Of a stretch of 36,859 nucleotides of DNA, positions 26,305 through 33,079 are shown piece after piece. Positions within the stretch are counted from its first letter, which is position 1; each line of letters opens with the position of its first letter. Location of the stretch: NCBI GenBank assembly GCA_947471985.1, contig CANIZL010000070.1, positions 1 through 36,859 of the forward strand, read 5' to 3'. The notes under the pieces were generated by a model. It saw only the letters and a list, made by a program, of their open reading frames with translations, was not told where the DNA came from and did not search any database. The position numbers were made by a program, and so were the translations under genes. Source of the stretch: Verrucomicrobiota bacterium. Lineage in GTDB: Bacteria > Verrucomicrobiota > Verrucomicrobiia > Limisphaerales > UBA9464.

Positions 26305-27627
26305 TCAACGCCGCTGCCGCGCCTTGTCGATCAGAACCGCTCCCAGGATCACGAGCCCCAGCACCACTTTCTGGGTGTAGCTCTCAACGTTCGTCAGGTT
26401 CATGCCGTTCTGAATCACCGCGATGGTGAACGCCCCGGTAAGCGTGCCGAACATACGTCCCTCGCCCCCGCTGAGGCTGGTGCCGCCCACCACGACCGCC
26501 GCGATCACGTAGAGTTCATACATGTTGCCGTAGGTGGCGGATCCGCTCTTCAACTGGGACGCCATGATGACCCCGCCCAATCCCGCCAGCAGCCCGCTGG
26601 CGACATAGGCAAACAGGAGCACCCGTTCCACCGGCACTCCGGAAAGCCGCGCCGCCTCCCTATTTCCTCCCACCGCGTAGAGGTATCGGCCCAGGCGCAT
26701 CCGGGACATCAGGATGTGCGCCAGCACATACAGAATGAGCAGGAGCACGACGGCGTTCGGCAGGTTGAACAGATCCGCGCCCCGCCCCAGCCAGACGAAG
26801 GAGTCGGGAATTTGATAAATGGATTGTCCGCCAGCGAGCAGGTAGGCCGATCCGCTCGCGACCAACATCAAGGCCAGCGTGACAATAAACGGTGGAATGC
26901 CGAACTGCGTGATCAAGCCCCCGCACACCGCGCCCGCCACACCGCACAACACGATGGCTACGACGCAGGCCAGGATCATGCCCCCGACGGAGGCCTGGGT
27001 TCCGCCCGCCCAATCGCGGATGAAGCGCGCCGTCAGCACCGCGGCCAGGGCGATCAAACTCCCCACCGAAAGATCAATGCCCCCGGTGATGATCACCAGG
27101 GTCATGCCGATGGCCACGATGGCGATCACCGCGATCTGGTTCGCGATATTGAGCAGGTTTTCGGACTTGAGGAAATTCGGCCAGCGATAACTCCGCGGGG
27201 CCAGGACTGTGGGTGAACCGAGCGTGGGGAAATCTATCTTCAAATCCGCAAACACCAGCCAGGACGCGGCCACGGTGGTGCCCGCAATTATATCGAGTTT
27301 TTCGCCCGCGGCCGCGAGTTTCTGGAGGGCTTCGCGGGCCTGGCGCGGCTCACCGGTGACCACCCCCGCGAGGCGGATTCCGGAGGCCGACAACTCCTGT
27401 TCCAACCGCCGGACAAAGGCCACATCCTCCGGCTGGTCACGTCCCACGATGAGCACGCGCCCCGTGGCGCCGAGTTGTTTGCGAATGACCGGCGCCAGTC
27501 CCGTGGCCGCCCCGGCCCCGGTGGGCGATTGCTCGGAATAGGTCACCACGCTGAAGTACGCGCACAGCAGCAGCAGCCCGAGCAAGGTGCCGTAATGGGA
27601 AAGAAAATCCGCGAAAGTTCGTTTCAT
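26305..27627 (-). CDS. rbsC: Sugar ABC transporter permease (RbsC/BPD_transp_2 type) with an inserted extracytoplasmic segment
   Basis: A 440-residue inner-membrane permease, about 120 residues longer than typical RbsC. The first helix lies near residues 12-30. Residues about 32-150 are hydrophilic and form an unusual segment with an alternating strand/helix look (GRVLIVGRDQPEDVAFVRRL, SASGIRLAGVVTGEPRQARE, KLDIIAGTTVAASWLVFADL). The normal core follows: MTLVIITGGIDLSVGSLIAL, GGLITQFGIPPFIVTLALML and YVIAAVVVGGTSLSGGEGRM. It should form the membrane channel for the sugar carried by the neighbouring binding protein. It starts four bases after the ATPase stop. Substrate identity (ribose-like) is by family only. 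Confidence 0.92.
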   Translation of the reverse strand: MKRTFADFLSHYGTLLGLLLLCAYFSVVTYSEQSPTGAGAATGLAPVIRKQLGATGRVLIVGRDQPEDVAFVRRLEQELSASGIRLAGVVTGEPRQAREALQKLAAAGEKLDIIAGTTVAASWLVFADLKIDFPTLGSPTVLAPRSYRWPNFLKSENLLNIANQIAVIAIVAIGMTLVIITGGIDLSVGSLIALAAVLTARFIRDWAGGTQASVGGMILACVVAIVLCGVAGAVCGGLITQFGIPPFIVTLALMLVASGSAYLLAGGQSIYQIPDSFVWLGRGADLFNLPNAVVLLLILYVLAHILMSRMRLGRYLYAVGGNREAARLSGVPVERVLLFAYVASGLLAGLGGVIMASQLKSGSATYGNMYELYVIAAVVVGGTSLSGGEGRMFGTLTGAFTIAVIQNGMNLTNVESYTQKVVLGLVILGAVLIDKARQRR

Positions 27628-27631
27628 AGGC

Positions 27632-29179
27632 TCAGGCCACGGCGAGTTTCAAGACTTGTTCCTGGGTGGCCTGACGGGCGTCCGCCAATTCACCCGTGAG
27701 TCGTCCTTCGTGGAGCACGAGGATGCGATCGGCCATGCCGAGGACTTCCGGAAGTTCGGAGCTGATCATGAGGATGGCCTTGCCCTGCGCGGCCAGTTCG
27801 TTCATCAGGCGATAAATTTCATACTTGGCCCCGACATCAATGCCACGGGTGGGCTCATCGAAAATCAGGACCTCGCAATTCCGCGCGAGCCATTTGGCCA
27901 GCACCACTTTCTGTTGATTGCCCCCGGAGAGATTTCCCGCCCGCTGCTCGGCATGCGGCACTTTGATCTGCAACGTTTCCCGATATCCGAGAAATTCCGT
28001 CCGCTCGCGGGAACGCTGCACGAAGCCCCCGTGCGAGAGACGTTCCAGATTCGGCAGACCGAAATTGTCCCGCACCGAATGCCCCAGCACGAGCCCCTGG
28101 AGTTTACGATCCTCGGTCAACAGGCCGATGCCCGCGGCAATCGCGTCGCGCGGATGGCGAATGGTTAGTGCTTTTCCGTCGAGCCGGATCTCTCCCGCCT
28201 CGCGCGGATCCGCACCAAAAATCAACCGGGCCGTTTCGGTTCGCCCCGCACCGACGAGGCCCGTCAGTGCGACAATCTCGCCGCGGCGCACGGTGAACGA
28301 AACGTCCCGCACCGCCCGGCCCGCGCGCAGACCCGTGATCTCCAGACGTACGTCACCGCGGGTCACCGATCGCGCGGGAAATTCATCCTTCAGTTCGCGC
28401 CCCACCATGAGGCGAATCATCTCCGTCCGATCCAACTCGGCCACCGGCTTTTCCGCCACGTTCTCCCCGTCGCGCAACACCGTGACCCGGTTCGCGATGG
28501 TGAAGATCTCCTCCAATCGATGGCTGATATAAATGATGCCCAATCCCTGCCGCTGCAGTTCGCGGATCCGTTGGAACAACCGCTCCACCTCATGGGACGT
28601 CAACGCGGCACTGGGTTCATCCATCACCAAAATACGGGCGTCCGCGGCCAAGGCCCGGGCGATCTCCACCAACTGTTGCTGCGCCGTGCTCAATCGACGG
28701 CAGGGAAGATCGAGATCCATCTGCACCCCCAGACGTCGGAATAGTTCCGTTGCCCGTCGACGCTCCTCCTGACGACCGATAAAACCACCCCGGGTGACCT
28801 CCTGGCCGAGGAAGATGTTTTCCACCGCCGTGAGTCCGGGAATGAGATTGAACTCCTGATAGATCACCGCCACCCCCGCCCGCCGCGCCACCTGGGGGTT
28901 GGGGAAACTGCAGGGCCGGCCATCGATGAGAATGGTCCCGGCGTCGGGCGAATGCGCGCCCCCGAGCAATTTCATCAAGGTGCTCTTGCCGGCGCCATTC
29001 TCGCCCAGCAAGGCCAGCACTTCCCCCGCACGCAACGTCAGGCTCACGCCCCGCAGCGCCTGGACGCCGGGGAAGGACTTCACCATTCCGCGCATTTCCA
29101 GGAGCGGCGCCGGCGCAGCCCCGCCCGTCGCTCCGGATCCACTCAGGGGATCACTTGAGGGCGGGATCCTTTTGGCCAT
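27632..29179 (-). CDS. rbsA: Sugar ABC transporter ATP-binding protein (RbsA type, two nucleotide-binding domains)
   Basis: A 515-residue double ATPase. Domain 1 has Walker A GENGAGKST (59-67), signature LSTAQQQLVEIARAL and Walker B ILVMDEPSAALTSHE. Domain 2 has the degenerate Walker A GLVGAGRTETA (Arg for Lys, normal in RbsA/MglA), signature LSGGNQQKVVLAKWL and Walker B VLIFDEPTRGIDVGAKYEIY. It energises the RbsC-type permease. The ATG at 29179 overlaps the 3' end of the binding-protein gene by 29 bases, and the first 26 residues are a Ser/Gly/Ala-rich lead-in, so a later start cannot be excluded. The gene order is binding protein, ATPase, permease. Confidence 0.95.
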   Translation of the reverse strand: MAKRIPPSSDPLSGSGATGGAAPAPLLEMRGMVKSFPGVQALRGVSLTLRAGEVLALLGENGAGKSTLMKLLGGAHSPDAGTILIDGRPCSFPNPQVARRAGVAVIYQEFNLIPGLTAVENIFLGQEVTRGGFIGRQEERRRATELFRRLGVQMDLDLPCRRLSTAQQQLVEIARALAADARILVMDEPSAALTSHEVERLFQRIRELQRQGLGIIYISHRLEEIFTIANRVTVLRDGENVAEKPVAELDRTEMIRLMVGRELKDEFPARSVTRGDVRLEITGLRAGRAVRDVSFTVRRGEIVALTGLVGAGRTETARLIFGADPREAGEIRLDGKALTIRHPRDAIAAGIGLLTEDRKLQGLVLGHSVRDNFGLPNLERLSHGGFVQRSRERTEFLGYRETLQIKVPHAEQRAGNLSGGNQQKVVLAKWLARNCEVLIFDEPTRGIDVGAKYEIYRLMNELAAQGKAILMISSELPEVLGMADRILVLHEGRLTGELADARQATQEQVLKLAVA

Positions 29180-30170
29180 CGCTCCGGCGGTAAAGCTGGG
29201 TCGGAATCAACATCTGGGGCGGCAACGTCTCGCCTTTCGAATGACGCACGATCGCCGCCACCATCTGCACGCCCATCTGATCCGGGAATTGAATGGGATC
29301 CGCGTAGATCTTGCCGTCCTTGATCGCCTGCCGTCCCTCGGGCTGGCCGTCGAAACCCACGATCAGCACCTGCTGGGTTTTGCCCGCCTTTTCCAGCGCC
29401 GCCCGCGCACCGAGCGCGGCCGGATCGTTGATGGCAAAAATGCCGCGCAACGCCGGATGCGCTTGGAGGGCGTCCTCGGCGGCCTTGTAGCCCATATCCT
29501 TGGCACCGCCGCTCTCCAACTCGGTGACCATCTCGATGCGCGCGCGGCCCTTGGCATTGTGCGCGTCGATGACCTCGCGGAATCCCTTCACCCGCAGCAG
29601 ACAGGATTCGGCCTGCTTGAAATGCAAAATAGCCACCTGCCCGCCCGCTTCCCCGAGCGCCTCGATCATCGCCACACCCGCTTCCTTGCCACCGCCGTAG
29701 TTGTCGGTCGCAATCTGCGTCGCGATTTTCACGCCCGGTTCGTTGCAGGGAATATCGACCGTAAACACCGGGATGCCCGCGGCGTTGGCCTCCTGGATCA
29801 CGGGAATAATGGCCTTGGAATCGCAGGGACTCAGCACGATCGCACTGACCTTCTTGACGATGAAGTCCTTGATCTGATTGCCCTGTTTCGCCACGTCCTT
29901 GTCGCCGCTGACCACGATGGTTTCATAACCCTGTCGGCGTCCCTCGGTGGTGATGGTGTCACCGATGACCTTGAAGAAGGGATTATCCAAAGTGAGCAGG
30001 GAGACGCCGATCGTTCCCTGACTCTTGGCGGGAGCGGCCCCGCCGGCCGGCGCTGCCGCCGGGCGGTCGCCGGAGGGACCACAGCCGGCAAGGAAGGCCA
30101 GCAGCCCGGTGAACAAGGTCAGAAACAGCGGCTTCAGCCGCCCGGAAGGAAAGAAAACTCGAGGGCTCAT
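29151..30170 (-). CDS. rbsB: Sugar ABC transporter substrate-binding lipoprotein (RbsB type)
   Basis: A 339-residue periplasmic binding protein of the Peripla_BP_4 family. A signal peptide ends in the lipobox L-A-G-C at 27-30, so it should be lipid-anchored at Cys30, with an Ala/Pro-rich tether after it. The binding domain begins GTIGVSLLTLDNPFFKVIGD. Ligand-pocket blocks are DFIVKKVSAIVLSPCDSKAI, GIPVFTVDIPCNEPG, GIFAINDPAALGARAALEKA and LIVGFDGQPEGRQAIKDGK. The family binds ribose, galactose, xylose, allose and related sugars. It is first in the transporter operon and divergent from the PQQ-like protein gene. Confidence 0.94.
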   Translation of the reverse strand: MSPRVFFPSGRLKPLFLTLFTGLLAFLAGCGPSGDRPAAAPAGGAAPAKSQGTIGVSLLTLDNPFFKVIGDTITTEGRRQGYETIVVSGDKDVAKQGNQIKDFIVKKVSAIVLSPCDSKAIIPVIQEANAAGIPVFTVDIPCNEPGVKIATQIATDNYGGGKEAGVAMIEALGEAGGQVAILHFKQAESCLLRVKGFREVIDAHNAKGRARIEMVTELESGGAKDMGYKAAEDALQAHPALRGIFAINDPAALGARAALEKAGKTQQVLIVGFDGQPEGRQAIKDGKIYADPIQFPDQMGVQMVAAIVRHSKGETLPPQMLIPTQLYRRSDGQKDPALK

Positions 30171-31739: not shown

Positions 31740-32915
31740 TCAAAGGGCGGGACTGCGGAACAACACGCGGCCGCCCACTTTGATCTCCACGTCGACCTGA
31801 TATTTTTTGAGCGCAACGAGATCGGGCTGCACGCCCAGGCCCGGCTGCTCGGGCACGTGAATACAGCCGGCGGCATCGGGCTGGAATTGCGTGGTCGAAA
31901 ACTCCCGGGCGAGCGACGAAGGCTCGAAGGGAAACTCGCAGATCTCGTGCTGGGCCAAACCCGCGTAGGGCTGTAACGAAGCGCTGAGGGCGAGTGGGGT
32001 CGTGAACGTGTGGTTCACATAAAGCACGCCCCGGGCCGCGGCGTACTCCGCGGTGTCCCGCGCGGTGGTGATTCCACCAATGCGACCGGCGTCGATCTGA
32101 ATGAAGCCGAGCCCGGCGTAGTCGATCATGGCCTTGGCTTGCTGGTAATTGTGACAGCCTTCGCCCCCGGCGAGTTTCACCGCGCCACTCACCCGGGAGA
32201 GGTCGGCATACGCTTGAAGGGCCCCGGAGACAAACGGCTCCTCCAACCACACCGCCCCGGCAGCCAACAACGCGGGCAGTCGCAAGGCCGCCTGCGCGGC
32301 GTCCTCGCCCCACACTGTCCCGGCATCCACCAGCAACAGCGCGTCCCGCCCCAATCCTTCCCGCGCGGCCCGCACATGCTCGGCATCCACGGCCACGGTA
32401 CCGCGACCGTACGGACCCCAACCGAACTTCGCCGCCCGGAAGCCCGCCCGACCCACCAACCGCGCCTTGTTCAGCGTTTCCTGCGGATCGTCGCCGAACA
32501 ATTGCGAGGCGTAGGCAATCTTGGGAAACGCCCGCTCGTAGCCGAGCAGTCGGTACACCGGCTCTGATCGCCGCCGCGCGAGCAGATCCCACAGGGCGAT
32601 GTCGATGCCCGACAGCGTGTGATCGGCCTGCAGCAGGTCGAAGCTATGCGCGCGCACCAAGGCGTTGATGCGACGAATGTCTTCCGGTCCCTCGAGCGTT
32701 TGTCCAAGCACCGACGCACTGACTGGTTTGCACGCGCTGTGCGACATGGGGCAGTTCCAACTGGCCAACGAAACCAGCGGCGCCGCTTCACATTCGCCCC
32801 ATCCGACGTGTCCGCCGGCCTGCACCCGCACGAGCAGCGCGTCCTGGCTGCCATCACCCACGTCCCGCACGACCGGCATCGAGAGGTAGAAGAAATCCAC
32901 CGATTCAATTTTCAC
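31740..32915 (-). CDS. Mandelate racemase/muconate lactonizing enzyme family protein (enolase superfamily)
   Basis: About 391 residues from GTG 32915; the frame is open to ATG 32972, but the family homology begins at VKIESVDFF. The enzyme class abstracts a proton alpha to a carboxylate, typically dehydrating sugar acids or racemising. Metal ligands lie in LLVDAGTVWG (Asp197), VWLEEPF (Glu225) and LAGGEGCHN (Glu252). A candidate base is Lys163 in RAAKFGWGPYG, and Asp275/His302 (IQIDAGRIGGITTA, VNHTFTTPLAL) suggest the mandelate-racemase-like His-Asp arrangement. The tail PGLGVQPDLVALKKY is seen in acid-sugar dehydratases. The substrate is unknown. It is near a sugar importer but not in its operon. 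Confidence 0.91.
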   Translation of the reverse strand: MKIESVDFFYLSMPVVRDVGDGSQDALLVRVQAGGHVGWGECEAAPLVSLASWNCPMSHSACKPVSASVLGQTLEGPEDIRRINALVRAHSFDLLQADHTLSGIDIALWDLLARRRSEPVYRLLGYERAFPKIAYASQLFGDDPQETLNKARLVGRAGFRAAKFGWGPYGRGTVAVDAEHVRAAREGLGRDALLLVDAGTVWGEDAAQAALRLPALLAAGAVWLEEPFVSGALQAYADLSRVSGAVKLAGGEGCHNYQQAKAMIDYAGLGFIQIDAGRIGGITTARDTAEYAAARGVLYVNHTFTTPLALSASLQPYAGLAQHEICEFPFEPSSLAREFSTTQFQPDAAGCIHVPEQPGLGVQPDLVALKKYQVDVEIKVGGRVLFRSPAL

Positions 32916-33079
32916 GCCCCTGTCAGTCGTTGGACGGGGGCCGTTGTCAACGCCGGCCGCGCGGTGCGGCACGGTACCGCCGGAGGCCTCATCACCTGCC
33001 CACCACCGCTCCGGCGGTTCCTCCCGTTCCCTGCTTCCTTTATTGTTCCGGTCGGGCCGCCCCGCCTAAGGTGGCCGCC

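Follow-up and report, generated by a model that had tools for sequence, protein, structure and literature searches.

A predicted folded, binding-protein-like domain in the first periplasmic loop of an RbsC-type permease from Verrucomicrobiota

The permease gene and its operon

The window, by which we mean the whole 36,859-nucleotide stretch of DNA analyzed here (contig CANIZL010000070.1 of the Verrucomicrobiota assembly GCA_947471985.1), carries on its minus strand an operon that encodes an RbsB-type substrate-binding lipoprotein (29151..30170, 339 amino acids; PF13407, E 3.6e-53), an RbsA-type double ATPase (27632..29179, 515 amino acids, assigned by family matches) and, downstream of the ATPase, an RbsC-type permease with an insert (26305..27627, a 440-amino-acid open reading frame (ORF); PF02653, E 1.2e-44). 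The lipoprotein has a lipobox-like LAGC motif, as read from its sequence, and matches the E. coli RbsB chains of the Protein Data Bank (PDB) at E 6e-38 to 3e-36. The permease belongs to an RbsC-type clade in which the periplasmic loop between transmembrane helices (TM) 1 and 2 is predicted to form a folded domain built like the C-lobe of an RbsB-type protein. Computation supports the existence of this insert, its fold, the membrane side on which it lies, the grouping of its bearers on a single branch of the tree, purifying selection on it and its nearly one-to-one pairing with a single RbsB clade.

The PF02653 match in the permease is confined to residues 157-430 (26338..27159), the conserved core from TM2 to TM10, where it reaches 153 bits against a gathering score of 26.8 and covers profile positions 1-268 of 269, placing the protein among RbsC-type permeases. 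The NCBIfam ribose permease model NF007067 starts to align at its position 37, opposite permease residue 149, which leaves about 112 surplus residues toward the N-terminus. As the score against this equivalog is 226.9 bits, below the curated cut-off of 398, the protein is best called RbsC-type and not a proven ribose permease. A preliminary description, made from the letters of the DNA, had proposed a 440-residue permease with an extra segment between TM1 and TM2 at 27180-27535; the ORF, the start of PF02653 at residue 157 and the NF007067 entry point agree with that architecture and with about 112 added residues, and the coordinates correctly delimit residues 31-150. TM1 corresponds to residues 2-28 (27544..27624), a helix in the structural model whose transmembrane assignment is a reading of that model. 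For the structural work the insert was taken as residues 29-153 (27169..27543), a total of 125 residues.

Fold and membrane side of the insert

A model of the full permease, built with 54 aligned sequences, had a mean predicted local distance difference test score (pLDDT) of 73.1, with the insert (block means of 79-91 over residues 21-150) above the membrane part, some of which lies below 50. Strands and helices occupy residues 30-150 of this model, between helices at residues 2-28 and 155-182, which reproduces the alternating strand and helix pattern first noticed in the sequence. Modeled alone, the insert forms a single alpha/beta domain (mean pLDDT 87.9, predicted template modeling score 0.81) composed of a short strand and a helix followed by strand-helix-strand-helix-strand-helix-strand. 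The structure prediction suggested in the preliminary description, when run on the permease with its insert, therefore returned an ordered domain, and a disordered linker is ruled out by the pLDDT of the insert alone.

In the full model, insert residues 35-146 superpose on residues 103-234 of E. coli RbsB (2gx6) with a Z score of 11.8 (105 residues, 2.5 Å), and residues 35-147 superpose on residues 179-310 of LuxP (4yp9) with a Z score of 12.4 (105 residues, 2.2 Å); other E. coli RbsB entries gave Z scores of 10.3-10.4. We take residues 104-235 of RbsB to be its C-lobe, and the insert has the fold of one type I binding-protein lobe on this comparison. A search with VIA-align using the insert alone yielded 50 best rows (Z 9.1-11.2) whose titles name binding proteins, receptors or designed versions of these, with the exception of 2rjo, the title of which is uninformative. 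The lobe-like character proposed in the preliminary description is thus favored by structure, specifically as a C-lobe, while the sequence comparisons given below back it weakly. The likeness to type I periplasmic binding proteins (RbsB, LuxP, XylF; Peripla_BP_4 and Peripla_BP_6) extends to one lobe only, as the 125-residue insert does not contain two lobes around a ligand cleft; it is also embedded in a permease, shares 7-19% identity with binding proteins in the structural alignments listed, and scores under the Pfam cut-offs in every case for which a score was listed. A fold shared with an RbsB lobe is no proof of function.

The membrane core has the type II importer fold with about ten helices, matching FhuB (7lb8; Z 16.9, 275 residues aligned, 4.4 Å), BtuC (1l7v; Z 15.7, 281 residues aligned, 4.5 Å) and HmuU, with Z scores of 15.7-16.9 across the three. 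Ten helices were read as transmembrane in the full model. With the N-terminus assumed inside and the insert excluded, lysine and arginine residues per sequence averaged 9.85 in the inside loops (approximately 57 residues) versus 2.61 in the outside loops (42 residues); the loops contrary to the positive-inside rule, TM2-3 with none and TM7-8 with 1.0, are both small. Additional support comes from a relative, L148 (G276:C11), in which a single-frame ORF of 778 amino acids encodes an insert-bearing permease, one extra hydrophobic stretch after TM10 and a complete RbsB-type domain. A binding protein must be periplasmic. Given ten helices, the one extra hydrophobic stretch ahead of this fused RbsB means that TM10 ends inside, and the TM1-TM2 loop therefore lies outside. 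The position between TM1 and TM2, the charge bias and this natural C-terminal fusion all place the insert in a periplasmic loop, as for a MalF-P2-like domain and as the preliminary description had expected, and together they rule out a cytoplasmic segment.

Compared with RbsC/CUT2 permeases (PF02653; NF007067), the window permease shares the core at residues 157-430, ten helices, the type II importer fold and adjoining RbsA and RbsB genes, but adds the folded periplasmic domain of about 112 residues after TM1 and scores 226.9 bits where NF007067 sets 398. To our knowledge, permeases of this family are without a folded periplasmic domain, and binding modules fused to importers are complete and two-lobed. 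What is new here is the addition of one binding-protein-like lobe to a permease of an established family; among the matches listed from the open-licence PubMed Central literature, no paper describes such a permease insert. In OpuA, the binding domains are fused to the importer. PMC11065425 counts these domains as part of the importer complex, and L148, a permease fused with a complete RbsB, resembles OpuA-type importers in this respect, whereas the window permease holds half a binding protein and has a separate RbsB lipoprotein gene. A complete binding domain joined covalently to the permease was found only in L148 and not in the window.

Distribution, conservation and ancestry

A query spanning TM1, the insert and TM2 was searched against 286 genomes of the class and found the insert in 35 of them, after removal of one spurious match from 36 (G107; E 2.4e-4, 24% identity), which is a 215-amino-acid ORF unrelated to the permease that we take to be ExbD-like. 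Insert sequences were read in 32 of the 35 genomes, with G130, G249 and G261 remaining. A phylum-wide sample contained the insert in 11 of 387 genomes, three of the 11 outside the class. In a GTDB-wide pattern scan with the same type of query, the best 80 of 254 relatives were kept, and these match at least 141 of 169 query residues, insert included. Their record taxonomy, in which labels of metagenome-assembled genomes can be wrong, comprises 67 Verrucomicrobiota, 11 Planctomycetota and 2 Pseudomonadota, a positive outcome for the search among Planctomycetes and Verrucomicrobiota permeases that had been suggested at the outset. The aligned relatives share a similar TM1, insert and WPxFL exit, with the full YRWPNFLK in many but not all. 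Their start codons were picked by script (none was found for row L026), and the same architecture across relatives rules out a frame or start artefact. Two distant members from another class of the same phylum, L149 and L150, have a shortened insert in which the Trp and Pro are retained, R98 is replaced by Lys and the YRWPNFLK exit is missing. Separately, L002 (C14 of the window's own genome) and L208 represent another permease group, where TM1 and TM2 are likewise separated by an insertion, but one that is unlike this insert and, at about 45 residues, smaller.

The insert-bearing permeases form a single group. A tree built by a quick method from membrane-core columns only (64 rows, 57 of them different, with long branches flagged among the insert-less rows) divided all 49 insert-bearing rows from the 15 insert-less rows at a single branch, with a Shimodaira-Hasegawa-like approximate likelihood ratio test support of 97. 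This tree left out L185, a duplicate of the window, and the truncated L203, and included four of 11 other permease loci from the window's own genome. Core BLASTP identity to the window was 51-86% for insert-bearing and 34-45% for insert-less permeases. In the 38 nearest genomes, all 17 untruncated clade permeases besides that of the window carry the insert, so no loss is seen in this set; the best 80 of 254 loci, having been retrieved by way of the insert, are uninformative about losses.

Across 88 distinct inserts, with sequences weighted, T29, P94, W123, F152 and L153 are invariant. The best conserved stretches are the loop past strand 2, G92-x-P94-x-x-x-R98 (27334..27354; consensus GEPxDAR; weighted frequencies 0.92 for G92, 1.0 for P94 and 0.94 for R98), and the exit motif RWPNFL that joins the insert to TM2 (residues 148-153, 27169..27186; 0.94 for W149 and P150, 1.0 for F152 and L153). 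The invariant W123 (27259..27261; weighted frequency 1.0) lies seven residues past strand 3. Rates of substitution were compared for 261 pairs with a core dS (synonymous substitutions per site) below 1. In the 25 pairs with the lowest core dS, which are not independent, the ratio of nonsynonymous to synonymous rates (dN/dS) was 0.11-0.48 for the insert versus 0.03-0.34 for the core, and the domain is thus under selection, though less strictly than the channel.

The domain likely descends from a binding-protein lobe. When 54 single inserts were searched against Pfam at E <= 1, the two most frequent families were Peripla_BP_6 (18 of 54) and Peripla_BP_4 (9 of 54), with best E values of 5e-4 and 1e-4, respectively. 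Where the position of the match was examined, all six matches to Peripla_BP_6 lay within profile positions 108-200, and three of the four to Peripla_BP_4 within positions 104-203. Both regions were read as the C-lobe. N-terminal pieces searched at E <= 5 matched Peripla_BP_6 in 4 of 18 cases. The relatives with scores shown reached 12.5-21 bits, below the gathering scores of 35.1 (PF13407) and 31.7 (PF13458). A profile-profile test of 12 comparisons set the real, reversed and column-shuffled insert against a sugar set, a leucine-type set, all binding proteins and AroE. The real insert against all binding proteins gave the lowest P of the 12 (0.0045, probability 7.7%), with 0.14 for the leucine-type set, 0.05 for the sugar set and 0.023 for AroE. 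Corresponding values against the sugar set, leucine-type set, all binding proteins and AroE were 0.023, 0.46, 0.079 and 0.37 for the reversed insert and 0.54, 0.076, 0.27 and 0.26 for the column-shuffled insert.

Several results weigh against this descent. The window's own insert matches no Pfam binding-protein family, its best match being Orexin (E 0.033-0.45), and a whole-length Pfam scan of 26 permeases at E <= 0.1 gave a single match each to Peripla_BP_6 and Peripla_BP_4. The insert consensus aligns with Peripla_BP_4 at profile 15-80, which is the N-lobe. In the sugar set, the real insert did worse than the reversed control and worse than the insert against AroE. A direct hhalign comparison of the insert with a narrow RbsB alignment gave no match (P 0.14); the same program gave P 0.031 against AroE. 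Foldseek found no match to the insert at E <= 0.001 (best 7.5e-3, with binding proteins among the best rows), and an insert profile searched against PDB sequences returned 27 matches up to E 10 that included flavodoxins, designed and other proteins but no binding protein. Neither the permease sequence nor the full alignment matched anything when searched against PDB sequences. The weak sequence support for a binding-protein lobe, together with other weak Pfam matches that include HEM4, Fe-ADH and YjeF_N, would fit a flavodoxin or Rossmann-type domain that converged on binding-protein lobes or shares only deep ancestry with them. We regard such an origin as rather unlikely, as binding proteins account for almost every one of the 50 VIA-align rows and are the top two Pfam families on the 54 inserts, and as the helix ahead of strand 1, in our reading, suits a C-lobe. 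This alternative concerns the origin of the domain only and overlaps with the functional alternatives below, so that the likelihoods assigned to them do not sum to one.

Coupling to RbsB and the proposed role

Co-occurrence was scored using each genome's best candidates only and with cut-offs that differ between the partners (E <= 1e-60 for the RbsB clade, E <= 1e-160 for close RbsA). The RbsB clade was present in 34 of the 286 genomes, all 34 of which carry the insert, or put the other way in 34 of the 35 insert genomes and in none of the other 251. Of the 80 loci, 67 contain an RbsB of more than 50% identity, and several of the 13 without one are short. This presence in 67 loci, and as a fused domain in L148, rules out replacement of RbsB by the insert as a general rule; in L148 the permease, the insert and a complete RbsB are joined in one chain, and the insert is no replacement for RbsB there. 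The two genes need not be neighbors, as G274 has its insert permease and RbsB on one 4.9-Mb contig (contig 1, at 3.96 Mb and 1.34 Mb), 2.6 Mb apart.

Close RbsA was detected in 18 of the 286 genomes, all 18 with the insert, and 17 of the 35 insert genomes had no RbsA at the E <= 1e-160 cut-off. No RbsA of more than 50% identity lies nearby in 20 of 80 loci, some of them short; in these 20, which include L046, L048, L052, L057, L058, L060, L061, L076, L083, L105 and L118, RbsB and the permease are close to each other. Searches of 12 of these 20 genomes found a best RbsA that was 44-53% identical in 11 and none at E <= 1e-100 in one. RbsB and the permease seem to travel together more tightly than the ATPase does with them, although the cut-offs compared are unequal and the partner could still be a more distant RbsA. 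A permease without close RbsA in its locus may share an ATPase.

We propose that the insert helps to dock or retain the RbsB-type lipoprotein, by analogy with MalF-P2 and MalE in the maltose importer, and on the basis of fold and co-occurrence we give this role a probability of about 0.5. MalF-P2 reportedly stays in contact with its binding protein throughout the cycle, going by the title of a paper on it. The insert and MalF-P2 are both large periplasmic domains of permeases, and the analogy is one of role with no kinship claimed: according to PMC3150292, MalF-P2 comprises residues 91-271 of MalF, has segments between antiparallel sheets and touches the binding protein. The B. subtilis ribose importer has been modeled as RbsA-RbsC2-RbsB (PMC11466899), and this stoichiometry, along with the single permease gene, suggests that RbsC probably works as a homodimer. 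A homodimer would bear two lobes on the periplasmic rim of the pore, flanking one two-lobed RbsB, and these lobes may hold and orient the cognate lipoprotein during the cycle as a docking or retention collar. Such a single lobe on a permease suggests an unusual docking between channel and binding protein.

Some observations count against a docking role. G264 is an insert genome without a match to the RbsB clade, and G172, where the core of the clade permease is truncated at a contig end, likewise has no RbsB match. The components of any transporter would be expected to co-occur, as the insert and RbsB do, and shared ancestry confounds this pairing. The supposed cleft edge of the domain, on which conserved residues were placed by secondary-structure order alone, is also unevenly conserved, with averages of 1.91 and 2.18 for the loops past strands 1 and 3 versus a domain mean of 2.27.

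The faster change of the insert relative to the core in the 25 dN/dS pairs, and the presence of the RWPNFL exit among its most conserved parts, which points to a membrane-side interface, would also be consistent with a structural or assembly domain with no special part in docking RbsB, which would instead stabilize the dimer of permeases or bind some other component of the cell envelope. This we consider unlikely, if credible: the near one-to-one co-occurrence with one RbsB clade is compatible with such a domain but is not specifically predicted by it.

The conserved residues bear on a further alternative, in which the two lobes of a homodimer face each other, or each pairs with a lobe of RbsB, to form a second sugar cleft over the pore that catches the substrate released by RbsB. 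The lobe fold speaks for it, as do a Pro, an Arg and a Trp that vary little or not at all, with the Pro and Arg assigned by secondary-structure order to the loop past strand 2, presumably on an edge bordering the ligand cleft of binding proteins. The remaining loops of this edge are not specially conserved, however, a complete RbsB coexists with the insert and is even fused to it in L148, and a symmetric pair of C-lobes would be required, for which we know of no precedent. Work on halves of the Thermotoga ribose-binding protein (7qsp, 7qsq and probably 7pu4) points both ways. PMC10601554 and PMC9815098 describe lone lobes that fold, as the insert is predicted to, although they are laboratory constructs and the insert is a natural lobe-like domain inside a permease; permuted halves tend to dimerize (PMC9815098), and isolated halves lose ligand binding (PMC10601554). 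That a homodimer carries two binding-protein halves over its pore as a built-in split cleft, a second site receiving sugar from RbsB, thus appears improbable. If true, it would be an example in nature of the single-lobe arrangement from which periplasmic binding proteins have been proposed to originate.

Since the insert has the predicted shape of a binding-protein lobe, and binding proteins are what dock on the permease, it could alternatively act as a gate or plug, filling the docking site in the absence of RbsB and holding the transporter off through autoinhibition by mimicry of an RbsB lobe. We give little credence to this arrangement.

A conserved single lobe within a permease that has to meet a two-lobed RbsB of the same fold would offer a system for studying how sugar importers of the type II fold hold and open their binding proteins. 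It would also provide a natural single lobe for comparison with the laboratory halves used, according to PMC10601554, to test the origin of binding proteins by duplication.

Other genes were observed around these operons. Upstream of the operon in the window, at 31740-32972 on the minus strand, lies a gene resembling enolase-superfamily sugar-acid dehydratases, which falls short of the cut-off for each of the 14 families listed. At L118:6656-7927 and L061:6668-7984, a protein of 420-odd residues stands between an AroE-like gene and the permease, in the place of RbsA in other loci; that of L118 has no NCBIfam match. AroE-like (shikimate-dehydrogenase-like) genes occur between RbsB and RbsA in related loci, for example at L118:5857-6705 and L044:5406-6257, while in the window the RbsB and RbsA genes overlap and leave no room for one. 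A motif search for AroE found 42 ORFs in the 80 loci, one per locus among the 40 listed. The AroE-like gene of L118 scores 213 bits against TIGR00507 (cut-off 200.2), and its presence in such operons hints at an unusual substrate.
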